Below are positions 18,444 through 57,993 of a DNA stretch of 64,000 nt, one piece after another. The first letter of the stretch is position 1; each line of letters opens with the position of its first letter. The notes below the pieces were generated by a model, which saw nothing but the letters and a program-made list of their open reading frames with translations, was not told where the DNA came from and ran no database searches. Source of the stretch: a virus; the IMG/VR virus record IMGVR_UViG_3300048583_000198, positions 1 to 64,000 of that record; one strand, given 5' to 3'. Made by a program: the position numbers and the translations under genes.

Positions 18444-19688
18444 ATGACCACTGAAAATTACAAGTACCTTGAAACTCAAGGTGCTCCGGTGAAGGCATGG
18501 GTGCACGGTGTGCAGCTCGAGGAAGCTGCCTGGAAGCAGCTGCGCAATGTCGCTGAGCTTCCCTTCATCTACAAGCACGTGGCTGCCATGCCTGATGTGC
18601 ACTGGGGTATGGGCGCAACCGTTGGCAGCGTCATTGCCACCAAGGGTGCAATCATTCCGGCTGCTGTCGGTGTCGACATTGGCTGCGGCATGATGGCTGT
18701 TCAGACTTCTCTAGTTGCCAGCGATCTACCTGACAACCTCGGTTCTCTTCGGTCTCGTATCGAAGCTGCCATCCCGCATGGCCGTACCGACAACGGTGGA
18801 GCCAATGACCGTGGAGCTTGGAGCAACGTACCTGCCATGGTGGAGTCGGAGTTCTTTGGCGGCGGTAGCTCTACTTCGCTGCACAGCTCTCTGCAACGTA
18901 TCGTAGCCAAGCACCCTTCCATTGCGAAGGCGGCTGAGCGTGCGCCTCGTCATGCCGGAACTCTCGGCACTGGCAACCATTTCATCGAGGTGTGTCTCGA
19001 TGAGAATGACAACGTATGGGTGATGTTGCATTCCGGTAGCCGTGGGATCGGCAACCGTATTGGTAGCCACTTCATTGAGTTGGCCAAAGAAGAGATGCGC
19101 CAGTGGCACATCAACTTGCCAGACATCGACCTGGCCTACTTGCCGCAGGGTTCCAAGTATTTCCTGGACTACTGCGAGGCGGTGGGTTGGGCTCAAGAGT
19201 TTGCCCGTACCAACCGTGAGATCATGATGCGCGAAGCACTCAATGCTCTCCAAACTGAGGTCAAGCCGTTTGACCTCACTGCAAAGGCAATCAACTGCCA
19301 TCACAACTATGTTGCGTGGGAGCGACACTTCGGTGAGAACGTCATCGTCACTCGCAAGGGTGCGGTACGTGCGCAGAAGGACGATCTGGGAATCATCCCA
19401 GGCTCCATGGGAGCCCGTAGCTTCATCGTTCGTGGCAAGGGCAACCGTGAGTCCTTCTGCTCTTGCTCGCACGGCGCAGGCCGTCGTATGAGCCGTGGAG
19501 AGGCCAAACGCACCTTCACCCTGGCCGACCATGCACAAGCCACGGCTGGCATTGAGTGCCGCAAAGACATCGACGTGCTGGATGAAACCCCCGGTGCGTA
19601 CAAAGACATTGATGCGGTAATGGCGGCTCAAGCCGACCTAGTGGACATTGACCACATTCTGCATCAGGTGCTTTGCGTAAAGGGTTGA
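18444..19688 (+). CDS. rtcB: RNA-splicing ligase RtcB
   Basis: 414 residues, full family length. RtcB joins RNA 2',3'-cyclic phosphate (or 3'-phosphate) ends to 5'-OH ends with GTP and manganese. Seen here: VDIGCG with metal ligand C81, GTGNHFIEV, LHSGSRGIG, INCHHNYV, PGSMG, and the guanylylated His in SHGAGR (H343, equal to H337 of the E. coli enzyme), then YKDID. Three tRNA genes follow within 20 to 200 bases, so it may repair tRNAs cut by host defence nucleases; that link is inference. Confidence 0.95.
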   Translation: MTTENYKYLETQGAPVKAWVHGVQLEEAAWKQLRNVAELPFIYKHVAAMPDVHWGMGATVGSVIATKGAIIPAAVGVDIGCGMMAVQTSLVASDLPDNLGSLRSRIEAAIPHGRTDNGGANDRGAWSNVPAMVESEFFGGGSSTSLHSSLQRIVAKHPSIAKAAERAPRHAGTLGTGNHFIEVCLDENDNVWVMLHSGSRGIGNRIGSHFIELAKEEMRQWHINLPDIDLAYLPQGSKYFLDYCEAVGWAQEFARTNREIMMREALNALQTEVKPFDLTAKAINCHHNYVAWERHFGENVIVTRKGAVRAQKDDLGIIPGSMGARSFIVRGKGNRESFCSCSHGAGRRMSRGEAKRTFTLADHAQATAGIECRKDIDVLDETPGAYKDIDAVMAAQADLVDIDHILHQVLCVKG

Positions 19689-19704
19689 TGCTACACTTCC
19701 AATT

Positions 19705-19779
19705 CAGGGCGTAGTTCAGCGGTAGAATGTCTGCTTTGGGAGCAGATGGTCGAAGGTTCGAATCCTTCCGCCTTGACCA
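19705..19779 (+). tRNA. tRNA-Pro (UGG)
   Basis: Full cloverleaf: acceptor CAGGGCG pairs with CGCCTTG (one G-U pair), D arm GTTC...GAAT, anticodon arm TCTGC-TTTGGGA-GCAGA giving anticodon TGG, T arm GAAGG-TTCGAAT-CCTTC. The 3' CCA is encoded. Confidence 0.93.
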
Positions 19780-19786
19780 GTTTCGT

Positions 19787-19873
19787 GGGTGAGCGGTGAA
19801 GTTGGAGAGTCACGGCAGACTGTAACCCTGCTGTCTTTTGGCTGAGTAGGTTCGAATCCTACCTTACCCACCA
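19787..19873 (+). tRNA. tRNA-Tyr (GUA)
   Basis: Class II tRNA with a long variable arm. Acceptor GGGTGAG pairs with CTTACCC, followed by A and encoded CCA. Anticodon loop CTGTAAC gives GTA; the T arm is GTAGG-TTCGAAT-CCTAC. The long variable arm fits bacterial tRNA-Tyr. The anticodon stem has an A-C mismatch next to the loop. Confidence 0.88.
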
Positions 19874-19877
19874 CTTT

Positions 19878-19953
19878 AGGAAGATAGCTCAGCTGGTAGA
19901 GCATTCGACCGATAATCGAAAGGCCGCTGGTTCGAACCCAGCTCTTCCTACCA
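19878..19953 (+). tRNA. tRNA-Ile (GAU)
   Basis: Acceptor AGGAAGA pairs with TCTTCCT, D arm GCTC...GAGC, anticodon arm TTCGA-CCGATAA-TCGAA giving GAT, T arm GCTGG-TTCGAAC-CCAGC, encoded CCA. Only four bases separate it from the tRNA-Tyr gene, so the three are probably cut from one transcript. Confidence 0.95.
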
Positions 19954-20243: not shown

Positions 20244-23200
20244 AACACCTTGGAGTGAATCGTCGCCGTAGGCGAACCCCACATCTGATCCAATCCCGTT
20301 GAGTTGTCGATGCCACGCTCGTAGATAGCACCGTCCAACGGTCCCGGAGTCCCCACAACATTGCCCAGCCCCTGGGACACAAAGAACGAAAAGGGATTTT
20401 TCCGGAAGCGGTTCAACAGCACGTTCTGTGCACGCAACGTGAACTGACTCCACCAAATCATTCCGTACGTTTCGAGCGATGCACGCATCCGGCCAGGGTT
20501 GGTCTGATACGAAATCAACTCATCACGCACTTCATCACGTGCCTTTTCAACGGTTGCACCGTTCTCAATCATGTGCTGGAAGATCGCATAGCGTGCCAGG
20601 AAGTCACCCGCCTGAATCGCCTTTGATAGCGCATCATGTAGAGTACTGTCCTTTGCAAACAGTGCATTGGCCAGAATGGTTGGTGCCTTCGGGTGAACCT
20701 TCTCACGCAGATGGTTGTTCATCCAGCCAGCCAGATCACCCAGGTAGCTGTGTGACGGACTCTCTTCGAGACCTTCCGGCAGATCACTCAGCTCACCGGC
20801 TTCGATCAATGGGTAGATCGACAGGCGCTCAATCGAACGACGCTTTGCCGTCTGTATGGTGCGGAGACGTTCTTTCTCCACATCATCGGTTGTGCCAGCA
20901 ATCTGGATGCGCAGCTGAATGACTTCCCGCTGCAGTCGGTTGTATGCCTGCACTTCCCGCATACCCTGTCGGTACCACTTCGCCATACGGGAAGGCGGTA
21001 CGCCGTTGGCAATGACGAGATGCATTGCGCTCTGGAAGTTCTGGTAGGCAACCACCAAGCTTCGAACGATGATCAAGTCCTTTGCGGTGGCAACACCTTC
21101 CTTAAGTGCCTGTTCAGCTGCAAGGAAAATCTGTGTGCCCTTCGGTCCAGCAAACACCGTCTGGATGAGACCCAACAGAATCTTGCGCGTATCAGGATTC
21201 AACGACGCATCGCCCGTGTAGATCTCGAGCGCACCTGCGTTGTGATAGCCAATCGTGTTGGCCAACAGATCCTTGCGGACCATCACTGGGCCACCAAACG
21301 CATCAGCCAGATCGCGCTTGATGTCAGCCGGGATGTTCTCCCACGCACGCGCCACCTGCTTGTCGGTGCTCGAATTCACCATTTCATATTCGGCTTCACG
21401 TCCAGCGTCTTTACCTTCCTTCCACTGGTTCACCATCAGCTTGATGGCTTCCTGGTTCAATCGACGAGCCATGTTCTCTTCGGTGATACGACCGAGCTTC
21501 TTGCCGATTGAAACGTGGAGAAGCGTGTTGTTGCCCTTCAAGCTCTCGCGGACGATGGTCGGGTCGAGCATGCGCTCGTAGCCCATCACTTCACCCTGGA
21601 AGTTGAACACTGCTACAAGGTTGCTGTCACGGCCCTTGGTGCGCTGGATATAGCTGACAACCTGCTGGTTACTCAGCATCGTCCCAACCTCCGGCGTCAC
21701 AGAAGCGGCGGTGGTGTAATTGATACCCATCGCGGTCTGCTGCACGGTTGCAATGATGCCCTGCGAGAACACTGGCGGCGGCGTGTAACGACGGCTGTAG
21801 TAGTACAGATCGCTTTCCGGATCGCCAGAAGTCTGCGGATACTTCTTGCCCTTGATGTAGCCGAGCTGCTCGAGCTGTGCTCCCTTAATGCCATTGGCGA
21901 TGACCACGGATGAACGTGGGTCAGTCGACATGGGGAGACTGTCCTTCCAGTAGACATACCGGTACTCAGTACGCTGGTGCTGCTGTTCAGCTTCCTTAAC
22001 GTGCTTGAGCATGCCCACGAGCTTGTCCATGGACTCGGGGTGAGCCCTGAAGTATTGGCCCACCTTGGCTCGCTCAGAGGCCGCCAGGTACTCGATGGCG
22101 TACAGGGTGACCAACTGATCGGCATCGGCCACAAGGCTGTCTGGAGCCGTTCTGCGACGGCCATTGAGGTCATCTGCGATGGCTCGAGCATTGCGCAGCA
22201 GTTCCTGGGCAATCCCCGGCTTCGGCTTGCGGTGCACGAGGTAGTAACCCAGGTTCTGAGCGTCGATGTAATTATCAACTTTAGATTCAAGAACGGTGAT
22301 CATCCGCCGACGCTCAGCATCGTTAAGGTACATCTCAGCCGCCGAGCTACCCAGCACACTGACATCCAACCGGCCAAAGGCTTCGAACAGCGTGTTCCAG
22401 CCGTCGAAGTCCTCCGGGAAAAGTTTGCTCAGTTCCCTGGGGAGCGTGTTGTCGAACATGGAACGGGTCTGGTTGATCGCCGTCATCATGGCGTTGTGCG
22501 CCCGATAGATGAGTCGGCCATCGCCCTTAGTGCCAGCCAAAGCAGCAACCAGATCCTGGAGCCAACGCTGATCGGTGTGCGTGTTCACAGCTGCAATCAG
22601 ACCGCTTCCAAAGGCCGCAGCGCCCTTCTCAGTGGTCAAGGCAGCGATGCCCTTGAGCAACGTGTCGACGTACTGTGGGGCACGTGGAGCGGCGTCAGCG
22701 GCTTTCTGGCCAAGCTTCTCCATCATCCGGTTACCAAGGCGGTCCAGACGGCTGGTCACCGTGGCGTAGTAGCTCTGCTCCAAGTCCTTCTCAACCAGCA
22801 TTGCTGAAATGGCTTCATTCAGCATGTTGCCGCCTGAATCCTGTTGAGCATTGTTGAGTGCCTTGTCTATTAAGGCATCAGCAAGAGTCTGCTCATCCCG
22901 ACCAGCCCACAGCCGGTTCAGCTGTGCACCGAAGGTCGGCTCAACAGCAGCCAGTGCCATGACGGCTGCTACGACATCAGGCGACTTGTTGAACAGGTTC
23001 TTCTGAGGATGCTTCGAGAACGTGGCATCCACAAACTGCTCGAGTTCGGGAGACCGCTGACCCACACGCAACAGCGTGTAGACACGGGTGAACAAACGCT
23101 GCTGTTCTGGCGACAAGTTGTATGCCGTCACTGCCATGGCTTGAGTAGCGAGGTTCTCGCGCTGCACGCCAGCCAGCTGAATGTTCTGTCCCTGGGCCAT

Positions 23201-26200
23201 ACGCTGGAACAGATCGACGTACGCATCTTCAGTCAGCTGCTCAAGCGTAGCCAAACCGTCTTCTGGGACATGCTGACTCAACCGAGTCGACACACCGTCA
23301 ACGAGTCGGGCATCAGCCGGTACGCTGTCAGTCAAACTGCGGAACACATCCATGGCTTCGTTGTAGAAGTCATTGGCCGGTTCAATCTTGATGATGAAGC
23401 GCAGGATTTGCTTGACGCGGTTGATCACGCGCTGAACAAAACCAGGCGACAATTCTTCGATCACCGCGTCTTCGGTGAACACGTACGCCAACATTTCGCC
23501 CAGCTCATCTTGTGGCTGACCGTGCCAGTCATACGAAGTCATGACTCGCTGCACAAACCCAACGCGGCCAACGGCTGGCAACTTCTTGAACCGTTCCATG
23601 AGCTGCACGAGATCGTTAATTGGACCACGCAGCTCTACTGGCACCTGATTGATGTTCGAGAAGAAGTTGTCGATGTGTCGCGTGAAGATTGTGTGAATCA
23701 ACTCATGCAGCATCACCGAGGGTGAAGCCACCTTGAGCATGATGAAGCTGCCGGACGCAACGCCGGTCGTCACGCTGAAGCGGTGCTTGTGCATGCCACG
23801 CTGTTCAATCGTGTTGTTCCAGGCTTCTTCCGTGTCAGCAAGTTCCACCGACAGGTCAGCTGGCAGCAGGTTACGGATACGCTTCCAGACCGTACGATGG
23901 ATGGCATTCTTCCATTTCATCGCATCCAGGGCAGCGATTACTGCCGCACGATCGAGCTTCTTGTTGTTCACTTCGAAGGAAGTCTTCAGACCCTGATCTG
24001 TTTTCACCGTGCTCACAGATGCCTTGCCCGTCAGGCGGACATTTCGGAATACGGGCTCACCATCGTCCGTCTGCAGATTGTCCGTGCGCAGAACTTGGTT
24101 CTCGCGGATCTTCTCTTCAAGTTCGGCATCGCTGTACCGAGACTCAAACGTGATGATGCCTGCTCGCTTAGCACGCAGGTACATACGGATTGCGCTCGGG
24201 TGAACACTCTTGTCCGAGTCGTAAGCCACCCCAGCATCAGCCGCCATCTGCAACACCTTCACCAGACGCCGCAGCCCCGCACTCATGCCGTTCACAAGGC
24301 TTGGCTTAGCCGTGAAGGTATTGCGACCACGCCAACGCGGTCCCTTCATAATCACGTCAATGAAGCCTTCCTCGTCTTCAATACGGGTGGCTTCCGGATG
24401 CTTGTACTGATCTGGGTAACGGCCAGCTTCACGTGGACCCACTTCAGAGATGTCAGCAACCTGAGTACGAGGAGCGTCTTCCTCGAGCGATAGCTCGAAG
24501 TCGAAATCAAGCGACGCACTGCTGCGCACTTCACCACCAGGCGTGTTGAATTTGCCACCACCACCCATTTGATAAACGGTGTGCTTACCAGCAAGCAGCT
24601 CTTCTTGGCCGGTACGCTGTTCTCGATGTAGCTGGTTAAACTCGTCAACCGCTTCATTGAACCGAGAAGCCCATGAAGCAAAATCCTCGATGAACATCTT
24701 CTCATTGGGCTGCATGCTGTTGAAGGTATCAACGAGTGCATTGCGCTCAGTCTCAGTCGCTGCATCTAACAAGATCCGCATATCAGCAACCATTCCCTGG
24801 AAGCTGTTCAGAATGTCAAAGCCAGCTGTGGCCCACACGGCTTCATTCAAGGCCGTTCCAGCGGCCTCAATGTCGGTGACCTTCAGATCAATACCGTCGA
24901 ACACGTTCGTGGCATTCCACGCTTTCTGGAAGAAGCGAACACCCATCGAAGCATCGCCACCCGAGATGGTGAGCAAGGCCAGGATGCTGACACCGACAGG
25001 ACGAGGCGCAGGCGAGTCGAGATTGGCATCCATCGAAGTACCAAGACCCGTGATGGACGTTGCGTTTGGATTGAAGTCAGTGTTGTTCAAGCTGACGGTC
25101 TTGGGACCGTTGAGCGTGTTGAACGACAGGTCAATCGTTTCAGACATCAGGCGGTCATACTCGTCACGGCTGAGATCGTACAAACCAGTCTTCTTGTACT
25201 TCTCAAGCAGCGCCGCATTCTCAGGCTTAGCTTTGATCCATTCCTGAAGCTTTTGGTCCCACTGAACCTTCTTCATCATGTAGGCAAAGTTGGTCAGCTT
25301 AACCAGAGTATTGGTGACCTGCACAACACGACCTTTCTCACCGCCGTAAGCTTTGCTCATTGCAGAAGCCAAACCATCTAATGAGCGATGCCAGCGCACA
25401 GCATCCCAATTTTTGGCCTTGCTTAGCTGCTTTACATCCATGCCAAAACTTTCGTGGCCACGGAGCAACGTCTCAAGATGGCCCATCTGAGCCACCAGCT
25501 GCTGACGACGAGTTTCATCCGTCGTTCGATCCAATTCGTTCTTGGCTTTGATCCAGTTGAGATTGATGTTACGTACAACATCACTCCATAGTTGACGTTT
25601 AATCCCTGTTGGTCCACCGCCATATTGAACAGGAATCACGGCCAGCTTACCGGCATCTCGACGGAAGAGAACTTGAGGAAGACCCTTCACCTCAACACGC
25701 TCGCCGTTGAATACAACGGACATGTTCGGCGTTTCCTTCGTTTGAGGCAACACCTCAATGAGTCCAGCTGCTTCAAGCAGGAACAACTGACCCTTCAGCG
25801 GATTGATCAGGTTCGGATACTGCTTGAGAAGATCAGCCAGTCCCTTCACGAAGTGATAGCGAGCACGCATGTTGATGCGGCCATAGAAGTCGTCGCTCTC
25901 GTATGCTTCACGCATACGATCACGCTCAGTCTCGTAGGTTGCATCCTGCTTATCCAGGAATAAGCCGCCCTGCTCAAGGTTGGCTCCATTACGCACACCC
26001 AAGCCGAAGAACAGTTCGGTGTTGAATGCACCGTTGGTCTTGCCGTCAATTTCGAACATCAAGTAGTTCGTGAACGTGCCCTTACCATCCTGAGCAAGGA
26101 TGCGACCGTAAGTCAACAGAGCCGCCAGCTCACGAGGGCTGTAAGGCTTGTCACGGTTTTCCTTCAGTGCTGCAAGCAGTGCAGCCTGATCAGTGCGAGC

Positions 26201-53898: not shown

Positions 53899-54129
53899 TC
53901 AGAGCGCATTCCACTCATCCTCGGAGCCACCACTGAATCGTGGGGCGAGGTAGAGCTTACCGTCTTTCCGCTTCACGTAGCCATGCTTTTCGAGCGTCTT
54001 GGTCCGGAGGAATGCAGCCACTGCTGTCACCTGCAGTTCCTTGCCAAGCACCGCATACGATGCGTCAACCCAACAACCCTTGCACCACTTGGCCAAGAGG
54101 TTGACGAATGCCAGTTGCTTTACATTCAC
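53899..54129 (-). CDS. Winged-helix-like small protein, 76 aa
   Basis: GTG start with GGAGG upstream (distance about nine). The pattern ALGKEL-like VLGKELQVTAVAAFLRTKTLEKHGYVKRKDGKLYLA is that of a winged helix with a hairpin wing. As the first gene of the minus-strand block, it may regulate the virion or envelope operon. No match to a named regulator. Confidence 0.55.
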   Translation of the reverse strand: MNVKQLAFVNLLAKWCKGCWVDASYAVLGKELQVTAVAAFLRTKTLEKHGYVKRKDGKLYLAPRFSGGSEDEWNAL

Positions 54130-54238
54130 GTGCTTTGTCCTCCGTTAAGGTGAAGTGATTCTGCATGAGCCCGTGATATTTAGCAAGAGACTTAACGTCC
54201 ATTTTTTGAGGTTGAATTTTGGTCAGGTGGGAGTTTGA

Positions 54239-54259
54239 GAGTTTGAGACCTTCAAACTC
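54239..54259. repeat. Hairpin GAGTTTGA/TCAAACTC
   Basis: Inverted 8-base repeat with a five-base loop, preceded by a further direct copy of GAGTTTGA at 54231. It lies between the divergent minus-strand block and the first early promoter. It may be an operator, or the start of a cruciform; no other sign of its role. Confidence 0.5.
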
Positions 54260-54272
54260 GAAACCTCCCCCC

Positions 54273-54304
54273 CGGATTACACGTGCACTACGTGCACATC
54301 GGAC
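54273..54304 (+). promoter_or_regulatory. Early hairpin promoter E1 (vRNAP type)
   Basis: Box CGGATTACAC at 54273 followed by the hairpin GTGCAC-TAC-GTGCAC (54283-54297) and ATCGGA. Six-bp stem and three-base loop are the known N4 vRNAP promoter form. Two more copies lie downstream with the same spacing. The first early gene starts 29 bases after it. Confidence 0.72.
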
Positions 54305-54332
54305 CAACCTCGGTCCTTCCATGGAGTTCATC

Positions 54333-54542
54333 ATGTCCCTCATCAAGACCGCCTTCTCTGGCATGGTCCAGAAGATGCAGCTCGAGAACGCACTGCAGCT
54401 GCAGAAGCACCAGCACCTGCGTCCTCCGCAGATCCGACTGCAGATCGCACAGGGCCTCACCGCCATCGACGAGCAGCTCGCAGCTGACACCAAGCTGAAG
54501 AAGCGCTTCGACACCATCACGCTCACGTTGCCCACAACCTGA
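54333..54542 (+). CDS. First early gene, small helical protein
   Basis: 69 residues, MSLIKTAFSG..., Gln/Leu-rich helices (MQLENALQLQKHQHLRPPQI). GGAG at 54323-54326 marks the start; an in-frame ATG at 54321 is less likely. It is the only gene between promoter E1 and a stem-loop. Such first early genes often act on the host; no family recognised. Confidence 0.72.
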   Translation: MSLIKTAFSGMVQKMQLENALQLQKHQHLRPPQIRLQIAQGLTAIDEQLAADTKLKKRFDTITLTLPTT

Positions 54543-54551
54543 GCTAACGGC

Positions 54552-54571
54552 CTTCCCTCGCAAGAGGGAAG
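54552..54571 (+). terminator. Stem-loop after first early gene
   Basis: CTTCCCTC, loop GCAA, GAGGGAAG: a perfect 8 bp stem nine bases after the stop and directly before promoter E2. There is no U-tract, but vRNAP terminators can be simple stem-loops. Confidence 0.55.
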
Positions 54572-54574
54572 AGC

Positions 54575-54600
54575 CGGAATACACGTGGCCTTCGGCCACT
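54575..54600 (+). promoter_or_regulatory. Early hairpin promoter E2 (vRNAP type)
   Basis: Box CGGAATACAC then hairpin GTGGCC-TTC-GGCCAC (54585-54599). Same box, same distance and same 6 bp stem with three-base loop as E1, although the stem sequence itself differs, which shows conserved structure. A folded RNA starts immediately after. Confidence 0.72.
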
Positions 54601-54602
54601 CA

Positions 54603-54727
54603 GCGAAGCAGGACGATAGATCCTGTCTCTGGTGCATTACGCTGAGGGAAGTGAGCAGTCCGTACCAACCGCCTGTTGTACCCTTCACAGCACGTCCCAG
54701 AGTCCCTCTATCGTTCCTGTCCTTCGC
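54603..54727 (+). ncRNA. Candidate structured early RNA, ~125 nt
   Basis: The two ends pair in a long helix: GCGAAG (54603) with CTTCGC (54722), CAGGA (54609) with TCCTG (54715), CGATAGA (54614) with TCTATCG (54707), CTCTGG (54627) with CCAGAG (54697), about 24 pairs in all. An inner hairpin GTACCAAC/GTTGTAC lies at 54662-54681. It begins three bases after promoter E2 and ends before E3, and no good gene fits inside. It may be a free RNA of the early phase. Function unknown. Confidence 0.55.
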
Positions 54728-54766
54728 ATGAACACCTTTAACGGCTGTGCCCTCTTGGGCATTGTC

Positions 54767-54798
54767 CGGACTACACATGCGCATTCGCGCACGTCGGA
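54767..54798 (+). promoter_or_regulatory. Early hairpin promoter E3 (vRNAP type)
   Basis: Box CGGACTACAC followed by hairpin TGCGC-ATTC-GCGCA (54778-54791) and CGTCGGA, close to E1 in sequence on both sides. The loop is four bases here rather than three. The next early gene starts 37 bases on. Confidence 0.68.
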
Positions 54799-54834
54799 GT
54801 GCAATCCCGCACTTCGTTTCTCTGGAGAAAGTTC

Positions 54835-56063: not shown

Positions 56064-56372
56064 ATGCTCAATGGCATCGCAGTGTTTGTCATGCTCACCA
56101 TGCTGTTCATGTGGTGCGGCAAGAAATGGCGGCAACGCCTTGTCGGGATGGGATTCCTGACAGACATCTCGGTGCACATCCTGTGTCAGCTACTGCTCGG
56201 CGGTGCCAATGAGGGCCGCCTTGCAGTGCTGTTCGGGTGTGTGCTGTTCAATTTGCACTTGATGACCTACCGCAAGCTCTGGGGCTATTCAGCCTTCGAA
56301 GAGGGAGCATGGGTTTTCCATCGTGGTCTGTTCAACTTCCGGAGGAACCATGGAACATCTCAGGCTGGATAA
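56064..56372 (+). CDS. Membrane protein, 102 aa
   Basis: At least two hydrophobic stretches (LNGIAVFVMLTMLFMWC and the region LAVLFGCVLFNLHLM) with a basic loop KKWRQR. AGGAGA stands seven bases before the start. The 3' end overlaps the RNA polymerase start by 23 bases. Function unknown. Confidence 0.75.
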   Translation: MLNGIAVFVMLTMLFMWCGKKWRQRLVGMGFLTDISVHILCQLLLGGANEGRLAVLFGCVLFNLHLMTYRKLWGYSAFEEGAWVFHRGLFNFRRNHGTSQAG

Positions 56373-57993
56373 CCAGCGTTCACATGCTGTGAGTCTCGAT
56401 CCAGACACACAGCACATCTTCCACTACGTGTGGATACGGGGCCGATGCAGCTTGGTAGAGCTGTTTCCCGTGTTCGCACGTAAGGTGGAAGGATTCCTGG
56501 AGAAGCTCGAGAGCTTGCTGGTGCAGGGCCATCTGCATACAGATCTCAAGAGCATCTGGGCCAGGGACCGACAGATCGTGTTCACCGAAACTCCGCTGTC
56601 TCGACCGGAAGAGAGTGACAGCTGGGTGCTCAAAGCTCTGAACGAGCAGGTGCACGTCGTCGGTGATGATTTTACGTGGAATGGTGCCATCCACATCAAT
56701 CGTGACTTTCAGTTGCAGTGGCACAAGATGACGCTCAAGCCCGGAGATCGCTTCTATTTGGGCCATTTCGAGGATTTTCGTGGCCGCATCTACTGCAAGG
56801 GCCACATCCTCACGTATCAGGGCACCGACTTTCAGAAGTCCCTGATTCGTACTGAGCCCTATCAAGTGACAGACCTCGAGTGGCTGCACATGGACGTAGC
56901 TCGTAGCTATGGACTAGACAAAGCCACATGGGCAGAGCGTCTGGCATGGAGCTTGGACCATCCTGAGCTGCAACAAGGTGCCAAGGAGCCCTTCCTGTAC
57001 AAGAGCGCCTGGGAAGCTCTGCAGAAGGCTCTCAGGGGTGAAATGATTGATCACCCTGTCAGTCTGGATGCCACGGCCTCTGGCATTCAGTGCCTGTCGC
57101 TTATGGCGCAGGATCCAGTGAGTGCCTTGGCCGTCAACCTGGGTAGCCAGGTGGTCAACAATCCGTATCGGAAAGTCCAGGAGGAGATGGGACCGTACGA
57201 CTACGAGCGTGTGAAGCAGGCCACGATGACGCACTTCTACGAGAGTGTGCTCACACCCTTGCAGCTGTTTGGCGATGACTATCCTAAGTTCCTGGAAGCC
57301 ATGGAGAAATCCATGCCAGGGCCTACGGCTATTCGTGATGCCATCGCCAGCTGCATGACGTACCAGGATCGGTACAGGTGGGTGATGATGGATGGGTATG
57401 AGGTCGACATGAAGGTGACCACGCCCATTGAATGCACCATGGATATCGGTGCTGGCCATCAGATGACGTGGATAGAGCATCGACAAGCAGCCGTGGCCAC
57501 CAAGGGGCTCACTGCCAATGTGACGCATAGCCTGGATGCCCTCGTTCTGAGGGAAGTGCTGCGTCGTACCCACTGTCCCTACCAGTGGTACCAGCATGAA
57601 ACGCCTTTCGAAGAGCTGCGTGAGAAGGACATCCTGCTCATGCAGAGCATCATTCGGTGGCGACAGACTCAATTCCTGTCATTCGAGTTCATGGACCATT
57701 GTGATGGCATGAACCAGCATCTCGTTCCTCGAGAGCTGAGAGAGGCCGTGGACGCACGTACAAGCGCCGATTGCATGTACATCCAGCCCATCCACGACTG
57801 CTATCGAGTGAAAGCCAATGACGCCAGCCGCCTCTTCCAGATTGTTCGGGAAGTGATGGCTGACTTGGCGTATGCCAAGACGGCGGAATGGCTGCTGCCT
57901 CAGCTCGGATACAAAGGCAGCATCAAGGACGATGAATGCAGGAGAACGGCATTGAAGGAGCAAGTCCTTAATAGCCTCTACCTGATATGTTAG
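56350..57993 (+). CDS. RNA polymerase, T7/N4 RNAP2 type
   Basis: 547 residues. Motifs of single-subunit RNA polymerases: DFRGR at 142-146, motif A SLDATASG with D240, motif B K289...M293...Y297, and motif C PIHDC with H482-D483. Only about 140 residues precede DFRGR, against about 420 in T7, so the N-terminal domain is largely missing. In N4 this domain is a separate subunit, RNAP1 (gp15), with RNAP2 (gp16) bearing the catalytic motifs. No RNAP1-like gene was seen next to it. The start at 56350 lies inside the preceding gene, with GGAGG upstream. It probably transcribes the replication genes. Confidence 0.88.
   Translation: MEHLRLDNQRSHAVSLDPDTQHIFHYVWIRGRCSLVELFPVFARKVEGFLEKLESLLVQGHLHTDLKSIWARDRQIVFTETPLSRPEESDSWVLKALNEQVHVVGDDFTWNGAIHINRDFQLQWHKMTLKPGDRFYLGHFEDFRGRIYCKGHILTYQGTDFQKSLIRTEPYQVTDLEWLHMDVARSYGLDKATWAERLAWSLDHPELQQGAKEPFLYKSAWEALQKALRGEMIDHPVSLDATASGIQCLSLMAQDPVSALAVNLGSQVVNNPYRKVQEEMGPYDYERVKQATMTHFYESVLTPLQLFGDDYPKFLEAMEKSMPGPTAIRDAIASCMTYQDRYRWVMMDGYEVDMKVTTPIECTMDIGAGHQMTWIEHRQAAVATKGLTANVTHSLDALVLREVLRRTHCPYQWYQHETPFEELREKDILLMQSIIRWRQTQFLSFEFMDHCDGMNQHLVPRELREAVDARTSADCMYIQPIHDCYRVKANDASRLFQIVREVMADLAYAKTAEWLLPQLGYKGSIKDDECRRTALKEQVLNSLYLIC

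Follow-up and report, generated by a model that had tools for sequence, protein, structure and literature searches.

The 125 bases at positions 54603-54727 of the DNA analyzed here form a real, structured, untranslated element that is probably transcribed, and the promoter E2 upstream of it and the fold of the element point independently to one base, 54603. The reading preferred here, to which a probability of about one half is assigned, takes the element as the untranslated 5' portion of a transcript that the virion RNA polymerase makes early from E2, with a role that is most likely in cis. The element is a variant of the early transcript organization of the N4 type and not a demonstrated new class of RNA. 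The window, meaning the whole stretch of DNA that was analyzed (64,000 nt), covers most of a virus record of 72,442 bases; the features discussed below are collected in Table 1.

The source genome belongs to a highly divergent N4-like phage that is only distantly related to N4. A homolog of the N4 virion RNA polymerase is encoded on the minus strand and is the enzyme expected to read E1-E3 (its Pfam vRNAP_dom score is 24 bits, below the cut-off of 27), an N4-like middle RNA polymerase is also encoded, and the terminase is at most 47% identical to those of the Schitoviridae in GenBank. The middle RNA polymerase (56323-57993) is a single frame of 556 residues here versus two proteins in N4; in the relative G005:C1, the middle RNA polymerase match (23151-24811) is split across two overlapping frames, one of which has two in-frame TGA codons. 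Additionally, an RtcB RNA ligase gene (18444-19950 region, Pfam E 9.5e-131) lies directly upstream of three tRNA genes, an arrangement that suggests tRNA repair against a host tRNA-cutting defense.

Table 1. Positions of the polymerase gene, promoters, early genes, and RNA structures in the window.
Feature	Positions	Strand	Details
Virion RNA polymerase homolog, 3325 aa	20240..30217	-	E 4.7e-73 to N4 virion RNA polymerase (PDB)
E1 hairpin promoter, GGATTACAC + GTGCAC-TAC-GTGCAC	54274..54297	+	predicted +1 = 54301
Stem-loop at predicted E1 start, GGACC-AACCUC-GGUCC	54301..54316	+	
Early gene 1, 69 aa	54333..54542	+	39% identical to relative's counterpart; no known family
Hairpin just upstream of E2, CGGC-CTTCCCTC-GCAA-GAGGGAAG-GCCG	54547..54576	+	no T tract
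E2 hairpin promoter, N4 virion-polymerase type, GGAATACAC + GTGGCC-TTC-GGCCAC	54576..54599	+	predicted +1 = 54603
Long 5'-terminal RNA hairpin, candidate leader or non-coding RNA	54603..54727	+	fold, predicted +1
Closing helix 1, 6 pairs	54603-54608/54722-54727		
Closing helix 2, 5 pairs	54609-54613/54715-54719		
Closing helix 3, 7 pairs	54614-54620/54707-54713		
Closing helix 4, 6 pairs	54627-54632/54697-54702		
Counterpart hairpin just upstream of E3, CGG..TGCCC-TCTT-GGGCA..CCG	54737..54767	+	no T tract
E3 promoter-like element, GGACTACACA + TGCGC-ATTC-GCGCA	54768..54791	+	4-base loop
Stem-loop at predicted E3 start, GGAGUGC-AAUCCC-GCACUUC	54796..54815	+	
Early gene 2, 85 aa	54835..55092	+	58% identical to relative's counterpart; no known family

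The elements E1-E3 have the motif GGANTACACRTG in common, which occurs in three exact copies in the window versus 0.04 expected (at 54274, 54576, and 54768, all within 500 bases); the remainder of the 72,442-base record was not among the loci with a match when the motif was searched. At E1 and E2 the motif is followed by a hairpin of six perfect pairs and a loop of 3 bases, like those of the N4 promoters; E3 has a 4-base loop and fits the N4 geometry less well. The E2 hairpin (54585-54599) lies within the range of the N4 type, that is, 5-7 pairs, a 3-base loop, and a location in the early region, and the giant virion RNA polymerase that belongs with such promoters in the Schitoviridae is encoded in the genome. 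In N4, the virion polymerase reads its promoters in the form of extruded hairpins, and the first transcribed base (+1) lies 11 bases past the center of the loop (PMC4496689); promoters read from the N4 genome agree with this rule. N4 spacing would place the start of E1 at 54301 and that of E2 at 54603. The purine in the center of the loop on the template strand (-11) is present at E2 (template GAA, central A) and missing at E1 (template GTA), and the N4 template contact -8G is kept at neither promoter (at E2, top-strand base 54595 is G and the template C). Departures from -8G are also found in other phages on the list of hairpin promoters used below, and the contact may be specific to N4. Since -8G is not kept at E2, this promoter is called of the N4 type and not recognized as in N4, and the start sites are given as predictions because -8G is lost at both promoters and the template purine at E1. 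The preliminary description of this DNA had put the element three bases after E2 and its end 40 bases before E3; both distances hold, with the E2 hairpin ending at 54599, the element beginning at 54603, and the E3 motif beginning at 54768. A minus-strand open frame of 239 codons (54065-54784) crosses gene 1, E1, and E2 in antisense orientation and was judged to be mechanical.

The evidence that ties the fold to the promoter comes from a score in which every base was tried as the beginning of an 18-base strand closed by downstream sequence. Base 54603 is a local optimum for the closing helix and ranks 119 among 85,067 starts (about 0.14%), and this rank matters because promoter spacing independently predicts the same base as the start. 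On a list of 24 hairpin promoters, E2 is the only one with such a strong long closing helix at +1, where it falls within the top 0.5% of its surroundings; no long closing helix at +1 was found for the other promoters on the list.

Refolding of the element returned 24 pairs (6+5+7+6), matching the roughly 24 pairs in four near-stacked helices that had been reported to join the ends of the 125-nt stretch. The minimum free energy (MFE) is -47.3 kcal/mol (z -4.58), none of 200 shuffles being as good, and the fold is unchanged when 107 downstream bases are included. Pair probabilities are near 1 for most closing pairs and between 0.4 and 0.8 in the middle part of the element. By composition-corrected MFE the element ranks 88 among the 5,114 segments of 125 nt in the same window; its fold energy is high, but not extreme, and the fold is above chance without being spectacular. 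Folding of successively longer prefixes gives, from about 25 bases onward, a local hairpin within the first 24 bases, which at about 115 bases refolds into the long closing helix; the computed switch rests on a repeated TCCTGTC, with one copy near each end of the element.

The element is part of a gap between genes 1 and 2 (54543-54834, 292 bases) that is almost wholly structured (RNA z -6.7 versus -1.5 +/- 1.4 for random stretches of the same genome). Since early intergenic gaps are often structured in other N4-like phages too, the score of the gap alone is not distinctive. The hairpin before E2 is a possible end of the gene 1 transcript and the one before E3 a possible 3' boundary of the E2 transcript; because both lack a T tract, they do not qualify as standard terminators. 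E2 and E3 each follow a similar hairpin module that starts with AACGGC (AACGGC, hairpin, CCGGANTACAC), as if the promoter unit had undergone duplication, with the 125-base element between the copies. Immediately downstream of the stem-loop at the E3 start, the GGAG ribosome site of gene 2 is enclosed in a small hairpin, UUUCU-CUGG-AGAAA (54817-54834), that could limit translation of gene 2.

The statement that the stretch contains no convincing gene was upheld: the open reading frames through the element are short and without an early-transcript start having a convincing ribosome site. A coding origin was rejected because the frames through the element match the corresponding region of the only relative no better than chance. 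The covariance models of Rfam 15 gave no match to the element at the gathering threshold or up to E 5, and at loose thresholds only sub-threshold chance matches were returned, all of them off the element. Among GenBank phages and plasmids, no relative of the element was found by DNA similarity; one weak 33-base match to phage DNA lies in the early region, outside the element. The hairpin with T tract of an intrinsically terminated small RNA gene was not found at the 3' end of the element, and the only terminator-like match is at 54795-54816, at the E3 start.

Relatives by large terminase subunit (TerL) at 84-89% identity are fragments only, one of them stopping shortly past its own E1. This was the one further E1 that scans with the promoter pattern turned up; otherwise they gave two matches, both due to chance, in contigs of unrelated origin. 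Searches of viral contigs with single proteins and alignments (RNA polymerase, gene 1, gene 2) identified an early region in 3300048914_000176 only, and the genome contigs searched contained no relative of the early region. The contig 3300048914_000176 is near-complete (TerL 72%, RNA polymerase 68% identical) and has both early genes, and between the same two genes it carries another long hairpin (MFE -26.5, z -4.1; z -4.2 for its whole gene 1-gene 2 gap). The two hairpins have no sequence identity beyond chance and cannot be aligned, and no clear promoter was recognized before the hairpin of the relative. The presence and position of a long hairpin are therefore conserved in the one available relative.

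Under the preferred reading, the virion RNA polymerase would transcribe from E2 and, going by N4 spacing, the RNA would begin at or within one base of 54603. From about 25 to 110 bases, the first bases of this RNA would be held in the small local hairpin, and at about 115 bases the predicted refolding to an 18-pair closing helix would seal the 5' end in a long rod. The N4 virion polymerase does not have the part of the T7 polymerase that separates the RNA; it forms RNA:DNA hybrids on single strands, and release of the transcript depends on the host single-stranded DNA-binding protein SSB (PMC4496689). A cis role is favored because such a polymerase cannot separate its own transcript, and folding of the RNA as it emerges would help; most likely, folding would draw the E2 RNA away from the template. 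The sealed 5' end would be shielded, which could keep the gene 2 message stable and separate from gene 1, and it is also possible that the E2 RNA is set free as a short, stable species. Overall, we infer that the E2 RNA is made and that the sealing of its 5' end matters.

The main rival, itself unlikely, is that host RNase III cuts the long rod and in this way separates and stabilizes the messages of genes 1 and 2. Such processing would fit the relative well, where a long hairpin lies between the same genes without sequence identity or a recognized promoter, and it is consistent with there being no T-rich terminator between gene 1 and the element; however, it leaves unexplained why the closing helix should set in on the very base at which a separate promoter is predicted to start transcription. 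Quite improbable is a stand-alone small RNA acting in trans on host or other phage messages. Its own promoter, the closed fold, and the lack of a gene would suit such an RNA, and the hairpin before E3 could mark its 3' end, but there is no T-tract terminator, Rfam gave no match to the element even when the threshold was relaxed, and there is no conserved sequence as a possible target-binding site, the relative sharing none. If anything more doubtful is the version in which E2 is a dedicated stable-RNA gene read by the injected virion polymerase, with the TCCTGTC repeat, whose copies compete for one 5' strand, as a folding switch and action in trans in the first minutes of infection; a free RNA from E2 would be produced before any phage protein.

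The preliminary description had interpreted the stretch as an early-transcribed, closed RNA that acts in itself, for example on host polymerase, ribosomes, or defense. The sequence supports this in part: a promoter of the N4 type points into the element, the helix closes from the predicted first base, and no gene or known RNA family was found. A free RNA directed at host polymerase, ribosomes, or defense is unsupported. Separate termination is unproven, the 3' hairpin being without a T tract, and the hairpin of the relative, before which no promoter was recognized, fits a cis-acting leader or spacer equally well or better.

It is very unlikely that a GC-rich gap next to genuine promoter hairpins merely folds by chance and that the stretch has no function. 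The rank of the fold alone within its own genome would allow it, but the closing helix and the predicted start fall on one base (a coincidence of about 0.0014 for a single named site) and a long hairpin is found at the same place in the relative. Least probable of all is a DNA-level element with hairpins extruding near the genome end for polymerase loading, packaging, or end processing, since structure that sets in precisely where the RNA is predicted to start favors RNA, even though the gap as single-stranded DNA forms a row of hairpins (z -5.5) and, in LIT1, LUZ7, and CB1, the end of the terminal repeat falls in the gap that follows the first gene or genes.

Short stem-loops also begin at the predicted first base of early RNAs at E1 and E3 and in N4 P1 (GGACA-UGU-UGUCC), N4 P2 (GGAUG-..-CAUCC), Moo19, DSS3phi2, and others. 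A looser score with 40-base spans was uninformative about them. In a hand-picked promoter list, which was chosen after the start sequences had been seen, such a stem-loop is present in 11 of 24 cases versus 10% (p 7e-6). Automatic choice of candidates gave 6 of 37 versus 6.9% (p 0.04), or 5 of 21 when restricted to a G at +1 (p 0.013), related phages not being independent in either count. The general rule that every N4-like early RNA starts with a stem-loop was set aside, automatic selection having weakened it to p 0.01-0.04, and with the selection bias removed the wider occurrence of short 5' stem-loops at starts in other N4-like phages is reported as suggestive only. No paper describing these short stem-loops was found in a search that most older N4 papers lay outside.

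Among known systems, the T7 early region has long irregular hairpins between early genes that are processed by RNase III. The element is likewise a long and irregular hairpin located between early genes in a podovirus; it differs in beginning at the predicted start of its own promoter, and an RNase III site in it is a candidate only. Bacterial mRNAs such as ompA carry 5' stabilizing stem-loops, in which, as in the element, the 5' end is paired and leaves few bases free or none, whereas the element would be made by a phage polymerase and is far longer. The closest likeness in promoter organization is to N4 P1-P3: clustered early hairpins with 3-base loops lie upstream of the first genes of a genome that encodes a virion polymerase, and the start is predicted 11 bases beyond the loop center. 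Unlike P1-P3, the promoters here have GGANTACACRTG as their shared motif, have lost -8G, and are crowded inside 500 bases, E1 is without the central template purine, and E3 has a loop of 4 bases. In the stem-loops of N4 P1, P2, Moo19, and DSS3phi2, as in the E2 structure, the first transcribed base is also the first base of the 5' strand; those stem-loops have 4-5 pairs and span 12-18 bases, in contrast to the 125 bases of the E2 structure. N4-like virion polymerases start on single-stranded hairpins, and in N4 the RNA stays on the template unless host SSB takes it off. If their early RNAs are built to fold from the first base, the RNA itself would offer a second solution to this problem, and the E2 element would be its most elaborate case.
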